From NCBI RefSeq assembly GCF_007746795.1, contig NZ_CP036343.1, positions 4,563,357 to 4,627,356 of the forward strand: DNA of 64,000 bases, written 5' to 3'. Origin of the DNA: Gimesia algae. Lineage in GTDB: Bacteria > Planctomycetota > Planctomycetia > Planctomycetales > Planctomycetaceae. Positions within the stretch are counted from its first letter, which is position 1. Each line of letters begins with the position of its first letter. The notes below the pieces were generated by a model. The model was not told where the DNA came from. It did not search any database and saw only the letters and a program-made list of their open reading frames with translations. Made by a program: the position numbers and the translations under genes. Positions 42,348-51,572 of the stretch are shown piece after piece.

Positions 42348-43340
42348 GTGAAACGCTTCTCTCTCCTGTTTGTTTTCCTCGTGTTGTTTTTGCTGACACC
42401 AGAGTCAACACAGGCCTGGAATTACGCCGGGCATCGGGTGATTGCTTCGATCGCCTGGGATCAGCTGACGCCGGAAACGCAGACGGCGATGATTGCATTG
42501 CTGAAACAGCATCCCCGGTTTGAACAGGATTTCCAGTCACGGATGCCGGAGGTGATCCGCAAGGCGAGCCCTGCGGTTCAGGATCGCTGGCTGTTCATGC
42601 GGGCCGCGACCTGGCCGGATATTGCCCGCAGTTTTAAAGAAGCGGATCGCGAGAAGTATCATCATGGCACGTGGCATTACATCAATCAGCCGATCTACCT
42701 GGACACAGCTTCCGAACAGGCATTGAGTTCAAATCTGCCTGTGAACACCGCCAGGTCGATCAGACCGGAAGACGATCCGCTGCAGTTCAATATTCTGCAG
42801 GCGCTGGAGTATAACGTCGCGCAAATGACAGCCCCTGCTGTCAGCCCGGCGGACAAAGCGCTGGCGCTCTGCTGGATTATGCATCTGACCGGGGACAGCC
42901 ATCAACCCCTGCATTCTTCTGCTTTGTTCAGCAAAGGCTCCTTTCCCGAAGGAGACCGCGGGGGGAACAGTATTCGCATTGGCAAATCGAATCTGCATGC
43001 GCAGTGGGATGGTTTGCTGGGAAACAGTTTCAAGGATTCGGAAATTGTGAGTCAGGCGGTCGGACTGGCTCGCGACCCGGCGTTAAAGCAACTGGGCGAA
43101 CAGGCGACAAAGAATCTGAATTATGCTGTCTGGATCGATGAGAGTCACGCACTGGCTAAAAGTGCCGGCTACACTCAGTTGATTTTGGACGCAGTGAAAC
43201 AGAATGATGCGCCTCAGAATGAATTCATCAAACTCACGGCCTTGCCCGCTGAATACTATCGATCAGCGGGCACGATCGCTGCCAAACGGGCGGCTCAGTC
43301 CGGCTGGCGACTGGCGGCAGTGATTAACGGCTTTCAGTAA
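42348..43340 (+). CDS. Secreted S1/P1 nuclease
   Basis: 330 residues. The signal peptide ends before Trp24, and the mature N-terminus WNYAGH gives Trp1 and His6 of the P1-nuclease zinc site. The other zinc ligands are visible: Asp in ATWPDIAR, His in HGTWHYINQP, His/Asp/His in WIMHLTGDSHQPLH, and HxxxD in LHAQWDGLL. All three zinc ions should therefore bind, and the enzyme should cut single-stranded DNA or RNA and remove 3' phosphates outside the cell, probably for phosphate or nucleotide scavenging. The start is GTG with GAGG seven bases upstream. No partner genes. Confidence 0.93.
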   Translation: MKRFSLLFVFLVLFLLTPESTQAWNYAGHRVIASIAWDQLTPETQTAMIALLKQHPRFEQDFQSRMPEVIRKASPAVQDRWLFMRAATWPDIARSFKEADREKYHHGTWHYINQPIYLDTASEQALSSNLPVNTARSIRPEDDPLQFNILQALEYNVAQMTAPAVSPADKALALCWIMHLTGDSHQPLHSSALFSKGSFPEGDRGGNSIRIGKSNLHAQWDGLLGNSFKDSEIVSQAVGLARDPALKQLGEQATKNLNYAVWIDESHALAKSAGYTQLILDAVKQNDAPQNEFIKLTALPAEYYRSAGTIAAKRAAQSGWRLAAVINGFQ

Positions 43341-43609: not shown

Positions 43610-45919
43610 TCAACCGGCATTCATCTGTTGCAGGATGCGAACGGTGTCGCGGGCAGCAGTTTCCGGCTTGAGTGCCGTGGCTGCGACTCCGGAAACGACG
43701 CGGGTGATATTATGATCGACCTGACCTGCTTTTCCCCAGAGTGATCCATCAGGCGATGTCATATAAACAGAGAAAGTCCGGTGCCCGGTTCCCGGTCGTT
43801 CGCCGATGATATGCAGGATGGCCCGATTTCCGGATAACCCTCCGAACAGGAGTTCCCCCACCTGGTATCCCGCACGGACGCGGCCTGATCTCACGATAAT
43901 ATTGCGGTCGGCGGTAGAGAACCCTGCGGACTTTAACTCCTGTCTGAGCAGACTGAGAAATGGATCGAGATGTCCTTCCTGCATGATGGACAGCGCATTG
44001 AGTCCATCGGAAATCACAATCTGTACGTTAAATTTGTTGAGATAGGATTCGCGCAGACTCCGAATCGATTTGACGGATGGCTCTGAAAGTTGTTCTCCGG
44101 TTGTGGGGTGGAGGATGTACTCCAGCCGATCACTGGAATTCGTTTCCACGGGAAGCACTTCAGGCACGCTGGCGACAAACACCGGAGTCAGTTCTGCCCA
44201 GATACTTTTTTTGGCATCGTCATAAATCTGATCGATCTGGATCTTCAATGCCGGCGCCAACTCAGCCTGTGTTTTCCCAAAGCCTTCCGCGAGAAACAAA
44301 CCGCGACTGCGGACTTCGTTCATCTGTAGGCGGCCTTCATTCAGGATGATTTCTTCACCGCGGGTATCACCTTTTTTCCGTCGATACTGCAGATACACGT
44401 ACAACGGATTCCCAAAGTTCCCGGTTGGTTTGCCTTGGCTATCGATGACGTTCAATTCTTGAAAGAACGACCACAGGGCATCATTGACACGGTAGCCGAA
44501 CTTCTCGCGAATTCTGACATGATCCTGAAATCCTGTGGTGAGATAACCGAGCATGGGATCAATCTTTGTCGGCAGAGCCATCAGGTAAGCCGGGTTGGCG
44601 GGCATGATCTGATCCAGACACCAGTCAAGATCGTGGAGAGAGACGTCCATATGCAGGGTCGAGCAGACATCCAGGCCAATAGTCAGGCCATGCAGTTTGC
44701 CCATGACAATATCTTCCAGGCAGCAGCGAACCAACTGTTCGCGCGAACGGAAGACTTCGGGGCCGATAAAGCCGGCGACATCATTCAAGTGTACCCAGGG
44801 AGCAGGTTCCCGGCCGCTTGCCTGCTGTGCGGTCGCGACTTCCCTCGTCAACGCGCGGGCGAAGCCATATTTACGGGATTCGTGCAGCACCATATCGAAG
44901 CCATGGCTGTGACCATTAGTGAAATCGGCCCCCTGCCCGGTTTCAAAGTACAAAGCGTACTGCCCGGTGCGCGAGCGGGCGTAGTCTCGCATTTTCTTCA
45001 GGTCGATATCAAAGGTCTGATTCGCGGCATCACTGCCGGCGATACTTTGAAACCAGAGAGCCGTACTGCCGGGACTGCGGCGTTCGACTTCGGCCTGCAC
45101 ATCGATATGTGAGAGCACACAATGCGGCAGAACGTGGTCGATTCCAAATGTCACCAGCAGGTCACGGAGCACCAGTTCGATGGCTGCTACCGATTCGGGT
45201 TCACTGGAAACCGGATTCGTTCCCAGTACGACATCGCCCACAGCATACGACCAGCCATCCAGTACCTGCCAGAAAATATCATCGGGATTGTCAGTCGGAG
45301 AGTTCGGTTGAATGCGGGCTCCCAGATAACCTTTCGCGCCGATCTGGCTGCCTGGTAATGAATTGAAGATTTTGGAGCCGACCGTAATCAGTTCCTGCTG
45401 ACTCATCAGTTTCACAACGCAGCCAATCACATCGCTGGATAGCTGCTGTGAGATCTGCTTGATGATTGCCTCGTTTTCGGTCAAGAGGAACTGTTTCAGA
45501 TCTCCTACGGTTTCAATTGTGCGGGAAGCGGTTGAGACGGCTTTCGCCGGGGTAATGTATTCAGTCAAATTGTCCTGATAGACCGGATGAGCGTTGATAT
45601 CTTTGATACGGGTATTCGTCAACAGAGATCTGGCATTCAACTGAGAGGGTTGATCAGCGGCAGCCACGCCGATCATTTGATCGCCCTCTTTGAATTCATT
45701 GGCGGCTCCGAGCAACTGGCGATACAAAACAGGATCGAAACCGCCGCGCCTACGATCGATGTAGGAATACAGATCTTCCCCTTCGTGAATCTCAGGGATC
45801 GAAACCTCGCCGACACTTTCCGTTTCAGCGGTCACTTTCCTGGACTGCGTCAAAGAAACGGTGACCGCGAGCGGTGCTCCCAGCATGGCCTGTACGAAGT
45901 CGCGTCTGTTCAACGGCAC
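43610..45919 (-). CDS. Fused ethanolamine ammonia-lyase EutB-EutC with Tat-like leader
   Basis: 769 residues joining both subunits of the adenosylcobalamin-dependent lyase that splits ethanolamine into acetaldehyde and ammonia. EutB part (about 40-530): residues matching the known substrate and cobalamin contacts are all present: Arg202 and Gln204 in ARIQPNSPTDN, Asn225 in GTNPV, Glu326 in YFETGQG and Asp417 in GLDVC. EutC part (about 590-769): VISDGLNALS and IIGERPGTGHR. The N-terminus NRRDFVQAMLGAPLAVTVSL looks like a twin-arginine signal, although the normal enzyme is cytoplasmic. The GTG start has AGGAA eight bases upstream. No EutA reactivase or microcompartment genes are nearby. Last gene of the IclR/PSD1/DUF1501 run. 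Confidence 0.9.
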   Translation of the reverse strand: MPLNRRDFVQAMLGAPLAVTVSLTQSRKVTAETESVGEVSIPEIHEGEDLYSYIDRRRGGFDPVLYRQLLGAANEFKEGDQMIGVAAADQPSQLNARSLLTNTRIKDINAHPVYQDNLTEYITPAKAVSTASRTIETVGDLKQFLLTENEAIIKQISQQLSSDVIGCVVKLMSQQELITVGSKIFNSLPGSQIGAKGYLGARIQPNSPTDNPDDIFWQVLDGWSYAVGDVVLGTNPVSSEPESVAAIELVLRDLLVTFGIDHVLPHCVLSHIDVQAEVERRSPGSTALWFQSIAGSDAANQTFDIDLKKMRDYARSRTGQYALYFETGQGADFTNGHSHGFDMVLHESRKYGFARALTREVATAQQASGREPAPWVHLNDVAGFIGPEVFRSREQLVRCCLEDIVMGKLHGLTIGLDVCSTLHMDVSLHDLDWCLDQIMPANPAYLMALPTKIDPMLGYLTTGFQDHVRIREKFGYRVNDALWSFFQELNVIDSQGKPTGNFGNPLYVYLQYRRKKGDTRGEEIILNEGRLQMNEVRSRGLFLAEGFGKTQAELAPALKIQIDQIYDDAKKSIWAELTPVFVASVPEVLPVETNSSDRLEYILHPTTGEQLSEPSVKSIRSLRESYLNKFNVQIVISDGLNALSIMQEGHLDPFLSLLRQELKSAGFSTADRNIIVRSGRVRAGYQVGELLFGGLSGNRAILHIIGERPGTGHRTFSVYMTSPDGSLWGKAGQVDHNITRVVSGVAATALKPETAARDTVRILQQMNAG

Positions 45920-46033
45920 GGTTCTATTTCCTTAACGAAGTGAGCGGGGACTCAAACGCCAGGGATAGCGTGCCCTGACAGAAGAGGTTTATGATACCAT
46001 GTTGGAAAACAGGAGATCAAGAAATGACTGAGA

Positions 46034-47449
46034 TTAACTCAAGATCTCCTGCACCACGTGGCCGTGCACATCCGTCAGACGACGGTCAATACCAGCCGTG
46101 CGGACCGTTAACCGTTTATGATCAATCCCCAACAGATGCAGGATTGTAGCATGCAGGTCATAACAGTACGTTTTCCCTTCCGCAGTCTGGTATCCCAGAT
46201 CATCACTTTTTCCATGACTGGCTCCCGCTTTCACACCTGCTCCCGCCAGCCAGGTCACGAATGTTCCCCGATTATGATCGCGGCCCAGACTTCCCTGTGC
46301 AAAGGGAGTGCGACCAAATTCGGTCGTCCAGATGACCAGCGTATCATCCAGCATACCCCGCGATTTCAGATCCCGAAACAAGGCTACAATTGGTTGATCG
46401 ACACTTTTGGCAATGGGGGGGAGTTCCGTTTGAATATTGCCGTGGTTGTCCCAGTTGTTGACCGCGCCTTGCGGGCCGCTCCAGACCTGCACAAACCGTG
46501 TCCCCCGCTCGAGCAGGCGTCTCCCCAACAGACAGCGTCTGCCAAAGTCTTCGGTTTCTTTTTGATCGAGTCCGTAGGCGGAATGAGTTTCTTTGGTTTC
46601 GCGAGTCAGATCAAACGCTTCCGGGGCACTCAACTGCATTTTAGCCGCGAGTTCCCCGGCTGCGATGCGGGCTTCCAGCCGGCTATCTTCCGGATGAGAG
46701 GCGGCATGTTGTCGATTCAACTGCTGTAACAATGTCACAGTATCTCGATCGGCTGAACCGCGGGCGAATTTGTATTGTGCGTCGGCAAACAGATCTGGAA
46801 TCGGAGTCTGACTGGCGGCATTGACCAGGGTTCCCTGATGCTTCGCGGGGAGGAATCCACAACTGAAATTGGCTTTCTGATTGTAAGGGAGCCCACGACT
46901 GTCGGGAAGTACTACAAACGTCGGGAGATTATCAGCAAGATTTCCCAGAGCGTAAGAGACCCAGGCCCCCAGGCAGGGGAAGCCTGGTAGCATGAAGCCG
47001 GTATTCATCATGTAACTGGCTGGTCCATGCACGTTTGTTTTTGTCGTCATCGCCATCAAGAAAGCCAACTCGTCGACAATCTGAGCCTGATGCGGAAAGA
47101 CGGAACTGACCCAGCGGCCCGTTTCTCCCTGCTGTTTGAATTCAAACGGACTTTTCATCACCGAACCAACGGCTCCGGTAAAGCCTTCCGGTTTTTCCTT
47201 CGGTCCCAGATTTTGTCCATGCAGCCGCTTCAACTCAGGCTTATAGTCGAAAGTATCCATCGGGCTGGCACCACCATTCATGAACAGTTGAATGACTCGT
47301 TTCACTTTCGCCCGATGATGCAGCCCACCGTTCAAATCAGGTTCAGCAGCTTCTGATGATTCACTTCCCAGCCAGCAGGCCAGCGCGGCTGCACCAAAAC
47401 TGTTTCCCGAACAGGAGAGCATTTCTCGTCTTGTGAGAGCATTATGCAT
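46034..47449 (-). CDS. DUF1501 domain-containing protein (Tat-exported)
   Basis: About 471 residues from ATG 47449, which lies 17 bases after the stop of the preceding gene; the frame is open upstream into that gene, but LTRREMLSCSG then would not be near the N-terminus. The leader has twin arginines. DUF1501 proteins belong to the alkaline-phosphatase-like superfamily: MNGGASPMDTFDYKPEL, then DTLVIWTTEFGRTPFAQG and GRDHNRGTF are typical metal-ligand regions. They are nearly always paired with PSD1/DUF1553 proteins, as here. The substrate is unknown. Confidence 0.9.
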   Translation of the reverse strand: MHNALTRREMLSCSGNSFGAAALACWLGSESSEAAEPDLNGGLHHRAKVKRVIQLFMNGGASPMDTFDYKPELKRLHGQNLGPKEKPEGFTGAVGSVMKSPFEFKQQGETGRWVSSVFPHQAQIVDELAFLMAMTTKTNVHGPASYMMNTGFMLPGFPCLGAWVSYALGNLADNLPTFVVLPDSRGLPYNQKANFSCGFLPAKHQGTLVNAASQTPIPDLFADAQYKFARGSADRDTVTLLQQLNRQHAASHPEDSRLEARIAAGELAAKMQLSAPEAFDLTRETKETHSAYGLDQKETEDFGRRCLLGRRLLERGTRFVQVWSGPQGAVNNWDNHGNIQTELPPIAKSVDQPIVALFRDLKSRGMLDDTLVIWTTEFGRTPFAQGSLGRDHNRGTFVTWLAGAGVKAGASHGKSDDLGYQTAEGKTYCYDLHATILHLLGIDHKRLTVRTAGIDRRLTDVHGHVVQEILS

Positions 47450-47465
47450 CAGCGGAAGCCTTTTC

Positions 47466-50429
47466 TTACTCGACAAACAGAAATTCATTACTGTTGAGAA
47501 CCAGACGACAGACCGATTCCAGACCATGCTGCCGTGCCAGTGCTGACATTTGGTTCAACTCTTCAGTTGTTGGCTCACGCAGCCAGGTCCAGCGGATCAC
47601 TTGTCTGATTTGGTCCGATAATTTTGATTCCGACTTAGCTGCTCGTTCGGCCATCTTCTGAGCGAAATGTAAAACAAATCGATTGTTTAACAATACCAGC
47701 GACTGCAGAGGCGAAGCAGAAAAACCGCGTGTCGGAGCCAGCAGCCCCAGATCCGGGAAATCCAGCGCATCCATCAGAGGATCGGGAATTCCCCGCCAGA
47801 CGACACGGTAGATACTTCGCCTGTGTGCGTCCGGTCGATTTAAATCGAACTGATCATAATGCAGAACGGGAGTGACCTGAGGGCCGGGAGTCGTTGTGAA
47901 ATGTGCATCTCCAGGCCCGCCCCGCTTCAGATCAAGTTCTCCGCTGACGAGCAGTACGGAATCTCGATAGCTGTCCGCATCAAGGCGTCGTCGTGACCTG
48001 CGGGCTAACAGTCGATTTTCCGGATCGAGTTTCACCAGTTCGGAACGGGAAGCTGATGACTGGCGGTACGTATTGCTGTTACAAATCAGACGATGCAGGT
48101 GTTTTAGCGACCCATTGTTATCACGTAATTCACAGGCCAGCCAGTCCAGCAGTTCCGGATGTGAAGGCTTGCCTCCCATGCGTCCAAAATCGTTGGGTGT
48201 ATCACAAAGCCCTGTTCCAAAATGATAATGCCAGACTCGATTGGCAATGCTTCGCCAGGTCAAAGGATTTCTTGAATCAGCCAGCCAGTCTGCCAGAGCG
48301 GCCCGCCTCGCTGATTCAGTATGCGAAGCGGGTAAATCAAACCGACCTGGTAATGGCGACAATGCAGTCAAAGCTCCCGGAGGAACGACTTCGCGTGGTT
48401 TTCCGAGATCGCCTCGCGCGAGCAGATGGATTTCGCGAGGCTGTGAAAACTTCACCATTCCACGTTCATTCACAGCCTCCGCTGCAGCCGCATAGACCTT
48501 CTCCTGAGGCGGGAGCTGCTTTAATTCCTGTTCTGCACGATGTTTCAAAACCACGGACGCCAGCGTCAAATGTTGTTCCGGTGTTCTCTGGTGCTGAGGA
48601 ATAGTGAGCGCCGTTTCTGCTTCAGCAGTGAGTGCAATCACATCCAGATTTGGTGAGTTGGTCACAGAGAGTTTAAATCGCCCGATCGTATGAGCTCCGC
48701 CGTGCAACTGTTTCAATGTGACAACCAGCCTGGTATCGGGGTCTACCTTTAATGGCATTTGCGGTTCGAAAATGGCAAAATGACCAACGCTGACCTGGGG
48801 ATAAATGCCCCAGGCGGTTTTCGGATTCCCATCGAGGGCATGCTGAATCGTCCAGCCAGCCTGATTGAAATCAGCTGTTGCCCGCTTGATGGGAATAGCA
48901 GTACCGGACGACGCATTTGCCGGAAATATCTGTAGTTCGAATTCACTCAAATGCAGATTACCATTATGAGCTCTGCCGGGCCCATTGTGTGGAAGCGAAT
49001 CATCGGTCAATAGATCCAGTCGGACCGCGGAGACGATGGAAAGCTTTTCAGTACTCCCCGTCACGACAACCGTTTCCTGATCGGTCGGTTCCGCTTCTGA
49101 CAGAATAGAACCATCAGGTAAACGTTTTAAATTTGCGCCATATGTTGAAACGAATACATCTGGCTGTAATGTTTCCCACTGCGGTTGAGGACGACGCACT
49201 CGCTCCCACTCTGCAACGATTTTTTGATTTTCCGGTTTTAACAACTCTTCCGATTTCTGATTTACTGCTGCAGTTTTCAATGCTTGCCAGCGAGTGCGCT
49301 GCACTGCGATATCTCGCTCAACGTCGAATGAAATATCTCCTTTTCCGACACCGGCAAACACAGCCTGGAGAGCAAAGTAATCTGACTGAGTGATGGGATC
49401 GAATTTATGGGTATGGCATCGCGCGCAATTGGCAGTAGTACTGACAAAAGCCCCCATGGTCTGCGTCACCAGGTCATCCCGATCCAGATACTCAAATGAT
49501 TTCGGAGCGGTCGCAGCAGCGCTCTGGTCGTAAGGTCCTGCCCCCAGGAATCCGAGAGCCGGCATCAGATCGGTTTTCTCAGGAAAGAAATAATCGACGG
49601 CGAGTTGCTCGCGAATAAATTGTGACCAGGGAACATCTACATTCAATTGCTGAATGACATAATCACGATACCTCCAGGCATGCGGGCGAAAGACATCGTG
49701 TTCGAACCCATGCGAGTCAGCAAAGTGGACCGTATCAAGCCAATGGCGCGCCCAGCGTTCACCGTAGTGTGAAGATTCCAGCAAACAATTTACCAGTTGA
49801 TCGTATGCATCAGGGGCCGTGTCATTTTCAAAAGCTTCCACATCAGCAAGGGTGGGTGGTAAACCATGTAAATCATAAGTTAATCGCCGAATCAAGGTAC
49901 GACGATCTGCAGGCTGGGAGGCGGATATACCTTCTTCTTTCAGGCGTGCCTGGATAAACGCATCGATCGGATTTCCGACTGAAAAGGCAGGTACATCTGG
50001 ACGCTCAAGTGGTTTCAAAGACCACCAGTCGGTTGCGTTTGCAGTTTCGCTGACTGGCTTTGTATTCCGGGGATCAACGGCCCCCTGCTCCACCCAGCGT
50101 ACCAGTATCGCAATCTCCTCTTGAGACATTTTTGTTTCAGGCATCTGTAATTCGGGATCCGTGTGCTGAACCGCTTTAATCAAGAGGCTTAGATCCGGTT
50201 GGCCCGGAATGATTGCAGGACCTCGCGTCCCCCCTGTTTTCCAGCCACTCTGCCAGTCCAGAGTGAGTCCTCCTTCCATAAGTCCGGCAGTATGAGAGTG
50301 ACAATCATAACAGTGCTTATTCAGAATGGGTTCAACCGAATCACGAAAGAATTTGTTCTCGTCAGCGAAGCTTCCGGAAACCGGCATCAGCAGATTCAGA
50401 AACAAGCATGAGACGAAGAGGTCTTTCAT
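47466..50429 (-). CDS. PSD1/DUF1549/DUF1553 cytochrome c-like secreted protein
   Basis: 987 residues. A signal peptide (FVSCLFLNLLMPVSGSFA) is followed by a planctomycete cytochrome c domain with CYDCH (about residues 40-44) and a Met axial candidate in ELQMPETKM. DUF1549 follows from about 150 (DAFIQARLKEEGI, RLTYDLHGLPPT, YGERWARHWLDTVHF), then a discoidin-like beta region (about 450-610), then DUF1553 in the last 300 residues (NPLTWRSIANRVWHYHFGTG, RPDAHRRSIYRV). The start overlaps the IclR stop as ATGA, so the two are coupled. The family is thought to serve extracellular glycan oxidation or breakdown, but activity is unproven. Confidence 0.9.
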   Translation of the reverse strand: MKDLFVSCLFLNLLMPVSGSFADENKFFRDSVEPILNKHCYDCHSHTAGLMEGGLTLDWQSGWKTGGTRGPAIIPGQPDLSLLIKAVQHTDPELQMPETKMSQEEIAILVRWVEQGAVDPRNTKPVSETANATDWWSLKPLERPDVPAFSVGNPIDAFIQARLKEEGISASQPADRRTLIRRLTYDLHGLPPTLADVEAFENDTAPDAYDQLVNCLLESSHYGERWARHWLDTVHFADSHGFEHDVFRPHAWRYRDYVIQQLNVDVPWSQFIREQLAVDYFFPEKTDLMPALGFLGAGPYDQSAAATAPKSFEYLDRDDLVTQTMGAFVSTTANCARCHTHKFDPITQSDYFALQAVFAGVGKGDISFDVERDIAVQRTRWQALKTAAVNQKSEELLKPENQKIVAEWERVRRPQPQWETLQPDVFVSTYGANLKRLPDGSILSEAEPTDQETVVVTGSTEKLSIVSAVRLDLLTDDSLPHNGPGRAHNGNLHLSEFELQIFPANASSGTAIPIKRATADFNQAGWTIQHALDGNPKTAWGIYPQVSVGHFAIFEPQMPLKVDPDTRLVVTLKQLHGGAHTIGRFKLSVTNSPNLDVIALTAEAETALTIPQHQRTPEQHLTLASVVLKHRAEQELKQLPPQEKVYAAAAEAVNERGMVKFSQPREIHLLARGDLGKPREVVPPGALTALSPLPGRFDLPASHTESARRAALADWLADSRNPLTWRSIANRVWHYHFGTGLCDTPNDFGRMGGKPSHPELLDWLACELRDNNGSLKHLHRLICNSNTYRQSSASRSELVKLDPENRLLARRSRRRLDADSYRDSVLLVSGELDLKRGGPGDAHFTTTPGPQVTPVLHYDQFDLNRPDAHRRSIYRVVWRGIPDPLMDALDFPDLGLLAPTRGFSASPLQSLVLLNNRFVLHFAQKMAERAAKSESKLSDQIRQVIRWTWLREPTTEELNQMSALARQHGLESVCRLVLNSNEFLFVE

Positions 50430-51190
50430 TGGATGAGCCTCCTGGATATTTCATTGGCGCTCTGCAAGATGTGCTTTCCGACACTCGCGAACATTGCTTT
50501 AGGCAGCCGTTTCGAAGGAGCCGATACCCAGAGGACGGCAATCAGTTGTTCATCTTGCCCGATGACAGGTGCAGAAATGCAGTGGATTCCTTCGTCCGCT
50601 TCTGCATAATCAGTCGCATAACCTCGCTGGCGAACCTGTTCACATTCCTGCTGTAACGATTTTGGATCTGTGAGAGTTCGCGGAGTATCTTGTGTTAAGG
50701 GAATTCGTTTCAGTGTCTCTTCCAGGTCAGATACACTCTGCCAGGCCAACAGAATTTTACCAGGAGCATTATTATGGAGAGGAAAGCGTAACCCGATATC
50801 GACGGCAATCCGTAATGGATGCAGTCCGCTCACCTGCTCGATGATAACGCCTTCATCGCCGACGCGGAGTCCGAGCTGAACTGTTTCGCGGGTCTCGTCG
50901 CGCAAAACCCGCATGATGGGTAAGGCTTCTTCTACCAGACTGACATCCCCGACCTGTGGCAAACCAAGGGTCAGGAACTTTGTCGACAATCGAAAGCGTT
51001 TACTTAGCGGATCGCGTTCGAGATACTGGCGATCCATCAGCGTATGAGTAATACGAAAGACGGCATTCTTATTGAGTGAGAGCCGAGTAGCCAGTTCGCT
51101 GATTCCCAGACCATCGGGTACCTGATTCAGGACTTCCAATACATCCAGGCCACGCTCCAGCGCAGGCACACTTGTTGTCGCTGTTTTCAT
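50426..51190 (-). CDS. IclR family transcriptional regulator
   Basis: About 254 residues from ATG 51190, which has GGAGG four bases upstream; an upstream ATG at 51220 lacks one. An N-terminal winged helix (ALERGLDVLEVLNQVPDGLG, then LSLNKNAVFRITHTL) is joined to the C-terminal IclR effector domain (LRVGDEGVIIEQVSG, NNAPGKILLAWQS, EGIHCISAPVIG). It is first in the run with the PSD1 and DUF1501 genes, and possibly the EutBC gene, and so probably controls them. Ligand unknown. Confidence 0.9.
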   Translation of the reverse strand: MKTATTSVPALERGLDVLEVLNQVPDGLGISELATRLSLNKNAVFRITHTLMDRQYLERDPLSKRFRLSTKFLTLGLPQVGDVSLVEEALPIMRVLRDETRETVQLGLRVGDEGVIIEQVSGLHPLRIAVDIGLRFPLHNNAPGKILLAWQSVSDLEETLKRIPLTQDTPRTLTDPKSLQQECEQVRQRGYATDYAEADEGIHCISAPVIGQDEQLIAVLWVSAPSKRLPKAMFASVGKHILQSANEISRRLIQ

Positions 51191-51572
51191 TATTCCTCCG
51201 ACCACAGGAACACGTCCCATATACGTGACGCGTCACACCAGAATAACAACAGCACAGTTCTCAGTCAAACTAAATCCTACCAAAACAGTTTCCGCTCTGA
51301 GGATTCGTCCTCCCCAGGGATACGTACTGCACTAGCGAAAGCAGCTGTTTCGCACTGCATCACCTGTTTTGCGCACCGGTGCAAAATAGAGCAGATATTT
51401 TTCCAGCTATCAATTTTTGCAGATGCGCTCATACAACTCAGACAGAACACTTTGCGCTTCATTACTGCCCGTAGGCTGTAATCAAAACCTAGACTTTTTT
51501 TGCAATGGACCTGTTGATCAGAAACATTGACTTCAGAGATTAACTACCTTCAATTATTTCAAGAAGTTTGTC
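51191..51572. other. Intergenic region upstream of the IclR gene
   Basis: About 380 bases with no recognised gene or repeat; presumably holds the promoters of the IclR run and of the small plus-strand genes. Confidence 0.35.

Follow-up and report, generated by a model that had tools for sequence, protein, structure and literature searches.

A single-chain EutB-EutC protein of Gimesia algae is a predicted Tat substrate and belongs to a clade in which export signals are conserved

Radical enzymes that depend on adenosylcobalamin (AdoCbl) are regarded as cytoplasmic, the compartment in which synthesis of the cofactor, its adenosylation and ATP-driven reactivation are located. Fused EutBC enzymes were described in Pelobacter carbinolicus, strains of which grow on ethanolamine; this organism has two such proteins, EutBC1 and EutBC2 (Pcar_0491 and Pcar_0467), which are 70% identical, and no eutA (PMC3543383, the parts considered here). 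The genes that neighbour these fusions encode a corrinoid-type ABC transporter, VWFA proteins, an ATPase, and periplasmic binding and multitransmembrane proteins. In the same parts of that article the neighbours are read as uptake genes and substrate uptake is discussed, and a leader on the lyase is not mentioned (PMC3543383). The protein EutA removes damaged corrinoid from cytoplasmic ethanolamine ammonia-lyase, according to the sections of PMC5821096 covered here. A limited open-licence search of titles and abstracts, with parts of PMC3543383, PMC4360534 and PMC11596606, returned no description of an exported ethanolamine ammonia-lyase or of an exported AdoCbl enzyme.

The window analysed here, a stretch of 64,000 nucleotides from the Gimesia algae genome, contains an open reading frame for a EutB-EutC fusion of 769 aa that begins with GTG (positions 45919-43610, minus strand). 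A profile search identified this fusion as the sole EutB match in the 7.93-Mb genome. Because a Shine-Dalgarno-like AAGGA precedes the GTG at a distance of 9 nt, and no alternative start codon occurs between the GTG and an in-frame stop five codons 5′ of it, we consider the N-terminal leader to be part of the gene. The features of the protein and of its surroundings are collected in Table 1.

Table 1. Features of the window gene, its upstream neighbours and selected genes of Sec-type loci. Positions are those of the window unless a locus is named.
Feature	Position	Strand	Basis or remark
Shine-Dalgarno-like AAGGA	45929..45933	(-)	Read from sequence, 9 nt before GTG start
Twin-arginine leader, residues 1-35, NRRDFV at 4-9	45815..45919	(-)	Sequence, alignment, pLDDT
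N-terminal extension of mature protein, residues 36-66	45722..45814	(-)	Precedes Pfam EutB match
EutB domain, residues 67-499	44423..45721	(-)	Pfam PF06751, structure match, residue mapping
Linker, residues 500-551	44267..44422	(-)	Gap between EutB and EutC Pfam matches
EutC domain, residues 552-767	43619..44266	(-)	Pfam PF05985, structure match
DUF1501 protein, upstream neighbour, 114 bp away	46034..47527	(-)	Pfam PF07394
PSCyt1-PSCyt2-PSD1 cytochrome-like protein	47466..50429	(-)	Pfam
IclR-type regulator, overlaps next gene by 4 bp	50426..51220	(-)	Pfam PF01614 + PF09339
Unnamed membrane protein, examples	L054:2630-3412; L059:12439-13254		27 other Sec-type loci likewise
MoxR, DUF58, unnamed protein and VWA/BatA genes after corrinoid-type transporter	L059:16146-21821; L198:14924-19499		

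An initial sequence-only reading had placed both subunits on one chain, and this was borne out by Pfam matches to EutB (448.5 bits against a cut-off of 25) and EutC (110.3 bits against 25.8) within the same protein. The EutB half also passes NCBIfam NF011649 (584.4 against 554 bits). The EutC half falls below the cut-off of the equivalog NF003971 (84.4 against 230 bits), and we filed it as a putative divergent fused subfamily rather than as an EutC equivalog. In the AlphaFold model of the fusion (mean pLDDT 82.8), residues 1-35 score below 50 and values above 90 are reached from a block that starts at residue 41. VIA-align matched the EutB half to E. coli EutB (3abo_A, Z 36.8, 429 residues, rmsd 3.2) and the EutC half to 5ysr_D (Z 24.6, 240 residues, rmsd 5.3); the next structural matches were the AdoCbl enzymes diol dehydratase and glycerol dehydratase, with Z of about 19, and Foldseek agreed with these fold matches. 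Residues R160, Q162, N193, E287 and D362 of E. coli EutB, which we take to be its ethanolamine contacts, map to R202, Q204, N235, E326 and D417 of the fusion. The sequence-only reading had already listed the key contacts as conserved; Arg202, Gln204, Glu326 and Asp417 stood, whereas the residue it called "Asn225" is in fact a tyrosine, the asparagine in question being Asn235. Together with S292 and F384, the five contacts are kept in all 85 usable members of the clade described below. In the EutC half, all 84 clade rows that are ungapped at G639 and R680 keep these two residues, and all 82 that are ungapped at E707, R708, D735 and H736 keep those four.

Tat signals carry a motif resembling S/T-R-R-x-F-L-K that is followed by a hydrophobic stretch. 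The N-terminus of the window protein (MPLNRRDFVQAMLGAPLAVTVSLTQSRKVTAE) contains a twin-arginine motif of the form NRRxF (NRRDFV), followed by a stretch of moderate hydrophobicity; the VTA-like cleavage site is weak. R5 and R6 are nearly invariant (at least 90%) in a 28-row alignment (A2). A TatC gene is present in the same genome (G000:C1:4006406-4007230). Among 27 genomes tested, 26 have TatC, including that of the window; the exception (G1141) has a Sec-type enzyme. A cobalamin adenosyltransferase was found in all 27, again including that of the window.

Relatives came from 30 loci on named genome contigs and from four groups of genomes that were searched. EutB was present in 30 of 392 Planctomycetota genomes, which held 14 leader-bearing fusions, two leaderless fusions of the same clade, two distant fusions and 12 stand-alone EutB proteins. 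For the other three groups the query was the fusion alignment (A1), which also finds stand-alone EutB; it matched in 36 of 395 genomes from the phylum of a Desulfobacterales locus, 32 of 297 from the phylum of an Acidobacteria locus and 37 of 195 from the class of a Geobacter-labelled locus. Leaders were called by a pattern and a hydropathy rule combined with reading by eye, and four regex Tat calls (L100, L139, L144 and L153) were changed to Sec on reading the sequences. Fragments and failed extractions (L058, L060, L101, L122, L155 and L161), a locus cut at its 5′ end (L049) and duplicates (L115 and L217_1; L084, L099, L116 and L138) were left out. Among the 85 usable clade members that remained, the leader is of Tat type in 47 and of Sec type in 36, and two have none. 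The sequence-only reading had noticed the Tat-like N-terminus, had proposed a search for further Tat-led fusions and had named orthologues that begin beyond residue 35 as evidence against its view. A leader is present in 83 of the 85, and only L024 and L028 start after that point. Two exported-type EutBC copies occur in each of the genomes G1114, G1116, G1130, G1132, G1144, G1178 and G1224, and the paired copies possibly differ in substrate.

The Tat pattern required RR and allowed F, L, M, I, V or A after it. The Tat-type sequences have phenylalanine there (RRxF) in 45 of 47 cases though the pattern admitted the other residues, which argues that the leader is not a product of chance. A start codon lies one to four codons before RR in 43 of the 47. 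In L097, L114 and L113 the nearest start codon is 14, 23 and 38 codons away, respectively, and L053 has none within 40, so that the Tat calls of these four are less sure.

Trees were built from the mature parts of the proteins, with the leaders excluded. On a 97-row tree the distribution of Sec-type and Tat-type leaders requires two changes, and on a more careful tree built from 45 of the rows the Tat-type trio L097, L151 and L154 lies inside the Sec-type clade with support of 99/96; the start codon of L151 and L154 is two codons before RR. A single change between Sec and Tat was allowed by 0% of 200 bootstrap trees. An exchange of leader type on the same mature enzyme is thus strongly supported. 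Because two kinds of export signal occur on one enzyme, export itself would seem to be maintained by selection, and the swap would be hard to explain otherwise. When the tree was rooted on the distant fusions L019 and L023, the leaderless L024 and L028 fell outside the 83 leader-bearing members (SH-aLRT 99, with a long-branch warning). Their position would fit a cytoplasmic ancestor, and the two may represent either the ancestral state or a secondary loss.

Genes for an IclR-type regulator, a PSCyt protein and a DUF1501 protein precede the fusion on the same strand. We dropped this PSCyt/DUF1501 arrangement as a functional clue, as the genome contains 105 DUF1501 matches and the DUF1501 genes at related loci are only 40-43% identical to that of the window (40-42% for those beside the fusion in L032, L033, L036 and L072, and 43% for a second, separate gene in L064). 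The DUF1501 copy in the window has a Tat-like LTRREM close to its N-terminus. On the other side, an S1/P1-type nuclease gene whose product has a signal-like N-terminus (42348-43340) is convergent to the lyase gene, and homologues of this nuclease occur at the lyase locus in six other family loci. A Pfam scan found no known eut gene among five neighbouring window genes. The sequence-only reading had noted that reactivase, permease and microcompartment genes were missing nearby, and genome-wide searches for EutA, EutH and shell proteins agreed: EutA and EutH had no match anywhere in the genome, and about 2 Mb separate the fusion from the two microcompartment shell matches. The locus is thus unlike a metabolosome-type eut cluster, in which EutA, EutH and shell genes accompany the lyase. 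No cobalamin riboswitch was detected at the window gene, at seven further planctomycete loci or at six other Tat-type loci, and promoter and terminator scans performed no better than shuffles.

We also considered whether lack of EutA marks the exported type, and rejected this as non-specific. EutA matched in none of the 14 leader-bearing planctomycete genomes, and it was likewise absent from 11 of the 12 planctomycete genomes with stand-alone EutB, the remaining one (G105) having a weak match under the cut-off. Five exported-type genomes from outside the planctomycetes gave four partial matches (24-33 bits over 44-104 of 475 positions) and one full-length EutA, in G395 (G395:C175:13779-15173, locus L078, 455 bits), which is on a different contig from the fusion; the only EutB-type match in the G395 genome bin is its Sec-type fusion.

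These results led us to consider it likely that the window protein is a single-chain AdoCbl-dependent ethanolamine ammonia-lyase of an extracytoplasmic clade that is exported in folded form to the periplasm by the Tat pathway. This reading is based on the fusion, the leader, the retention of leader and active site throughout the clade, the swapping of leaders, and the presence of TatC and the adenosyltransferase; from these we infer export, cofactor, substrate, activity and cofactor loading before export. The protein would fold in the cytoplasm, probably binding adenosylcobalamin there before export, and the folded chain would leave through Tat. Cleavage of ethanolamine in the periplasm would give acetaldehyde and ammonia, products that could re-enter the cell. 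Fusion of the subunits would allow one leader to serve both halves and would remove the need for two-chain assembly after export.

A modified form of this reading is that the leader serves as a membrane anchor, either as an uncleaved Tat anchor or as a lipoprotein signal, with the enzyme facing outward. The weak cleavage site of the window leader is in keeping with an anchor, and so is L048 (L048:2851-5151, on a contig labelled Myxococcaceae), in which the Tat leader is followed by a lipobox-like AVGC that suggests a lipoprotein. An AxA-like site fits 30 of the 36 Sec-type leaders, which speaks against an anchor, and we consider this form unlikely. Slightly less probable in our view is that the N-terminus is an unused signal, whether a leader that has degenerated or a peptide that serves targeting or encapsulation, on an enzyme that is cytoplasmic like other EutBC proteins. 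The two leaderless clade members and all 12 of the more distant fused enzymes, none of which has a leader, are compatible with a cytoplasmic enzyme, and the portions of PMC5821096 considered here place the enzyme in the cytoplasm or inside a microcompartment. Against this, RRxF is kept, while the remainder of the leader varies, in Tat-type rows with 56-92% identity to the window protein, Sec-type leaders substitute for it in 36 relatives, the exchange of leaders has the strong support given above, and the shell genes are some 2 Mb distant.

The Sec-type genes have a characteristic neighbourhood. At 29 of the 36 Sec-type loci an unnamed membrane protein of 260-270 aa without a Pfam match follows and adjoins the lyase, the lyase being taken as a block of about 3.5 kb and a distance of 0 meaning adjoining or inside that block. 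BtuF- and BtuC-like corrinoid transport genes follow nearby at 20 of the 36, and MoxR does so at 19, commonly together with DUF58 and VWA/BatA genes. The best NCBIfam matches of the transport proteins are corrinoid transporters, below the cut-offs, and the best match of the binding protein is another family. An SBP_bac_6 periplasmic binding protein is encoded at most 9 kb away in 22 of 36 loci; 28 loci have a gene for an outer-membrane barrel-like protein (Gcw_chp, below cut-off) and 10 have one for an aldehyde:ferredoxin oxidoreductase. A distant oxidoreductase relative is found near the Tat-type L097. The membrane protein, BtuF and BtuC were found within 9 kb of none of the 45 Tat-type genes examined (L020 and L022, which have no flanks, were left out). 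In whole genomes, the membrane protein was absent from 18 with a Tat-type enzyme, two with a leaderless fusion and two with stand-alone EutB, and the two Sec-type genomes that matched the query are its own sources. The module is missing around four Sec-type genes whose flanks are free (L090, L098, L150 and L153); three more genes are at contig ends (L057, L089 and L100). By a plain count, the link between Sec leader and module gives a Fisher p of about 1e-15, but a test on independent pairs could not become significant, because the tree contains only two Sec/Tat changes. A structure model of the membrane protein built on a two-sequence alignment was uninformative (mean pLDDT 37.3), and among solved structures a sequence search found one weak match, to a lipase (E 0.053).

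This neighbourhood bears on a further alternative, namely that the protein is exported but has ceased to be an ethanolamine ammonia-lyase, its substrate being a different amino alcohol (choline, for example) or its reaction not requiring adenosylcobalamin. The EutC half is divergent, some Desulfuromonadia carry two copies, and distinct ethanolamine and choline lyases were suggested for P. carbinolicus (PMC3543383, the parts considered here), all of which would suit another substrate. Conservation of the five contact residues throughout the clade argues for ethanolamine, and use of the cofactor is favoured by the corrinoid-importer-like genes and by cobalamin riboswitches at L059 and L192, two of the 11 Sec-type loci that were searched for them; that of L059 (L059:8086-8258) lies 5′ of a gene for a TonB-dependent receptor, with about 1.7 kb between it and the lyase start. 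Of the three alternatives, we rate this one lowest. Chance or a wrong start codon as the origin of the window leader is ruled out by the ribosome-binding-like box, the close in-frame stop and the conserved leaders.

Returning to Tat export of a loaded enzyme, cytoplasmic loading would not be the sole solution in this family, because the 36 relatives with Sec-type leaders would export the chain unfolded. We tentatively propose, while considering it rather doubtful as a whole, that periplasmic AdoCbl chemistry is sustained in two ways, with Tat-type enzymes leaving the cytoplasm loaded and Sec-type enzymes being loaded and repaired outside by a dedicated kit. In this kit the unnamed membrane protein may, by conjecture, export adenosylcobalamin, and the corrinoid ABC importer would return the spent cofactor. 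The MoxR-DUF58-VWA machine might take over the part of EutA and reactivate the enzyme in the periplasm at the expense of ATP from the cytoplasm, which is likewise a conjecture; a general replacement of EutA by MoxR-VWA is less likely because the Sec-type genome G395 holds a full-length EutA. The neighbourhoods fit the idea that only chains exported unfolded require outside help, with about two independent events behind the contrast.

If the proposed export is correct, an exported adenosylcobalamin radical enzyme would be new. A widespread extracytoplasmic clade would raise the questions of how adenosylcobalamin passes outward across the membrane, how a radical enzyme prone to suicide inactivation could be repaired where ATP is not available, and why bacteria would produce acetaldehyde outside the cell. 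The exchange of Tat and Sec leaders on one enzyme would constitute a natural experiment on cofactor loading before as opposed to after export. For Pelobacter-like bacteria, ethanolamine use would involve periplasmic cleavage rather than uptake of the substrate.

Reductive dehalogenases are corrinoid enzymes with a Tat leader and provide a precedent for Tat export of a corrinoid enzyme. They reduce organohalides with a corrinoid and iron-sulphur clusters and are not adenosylcobalamin radical enzymes, whereas the window protein, also Tat-led, is predicted to be one. With E. coli EutB and EutC (3ABO) the fusion shares its folds and substrate-contact residues; however, the E. coli enzyme consists of two separate chains and has no leader, in contrast to the single led chain of the window. 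The distant leaderless EutBC fusions (L118-L121, L156-L160 and L179; L019 and L023) are also single chains, are 33-40% identical to L059, and differ in that none of the 12 has a leader. A EutA gene is located directly upstream of one of them, L019 (L066 / G061:C58:72275-75049). Genome G1114, which we infer to be that of P. carbinolicus, encodes two Sec-led fusions that are 71% identical to each other and are the sole A1 matches in that genome. These belong to the same clade as the window protein and differ from it in leader type, the window protein being Tat-type and without neighbours of the P. carbinolicus kind. The fusion itself has therefore been known since the 2012 description of P. carbinolicus, and, as far as our searches of the literature go, what the present comparison adds is predicted export as a conserved and apparently undescribed property of these enzymes.
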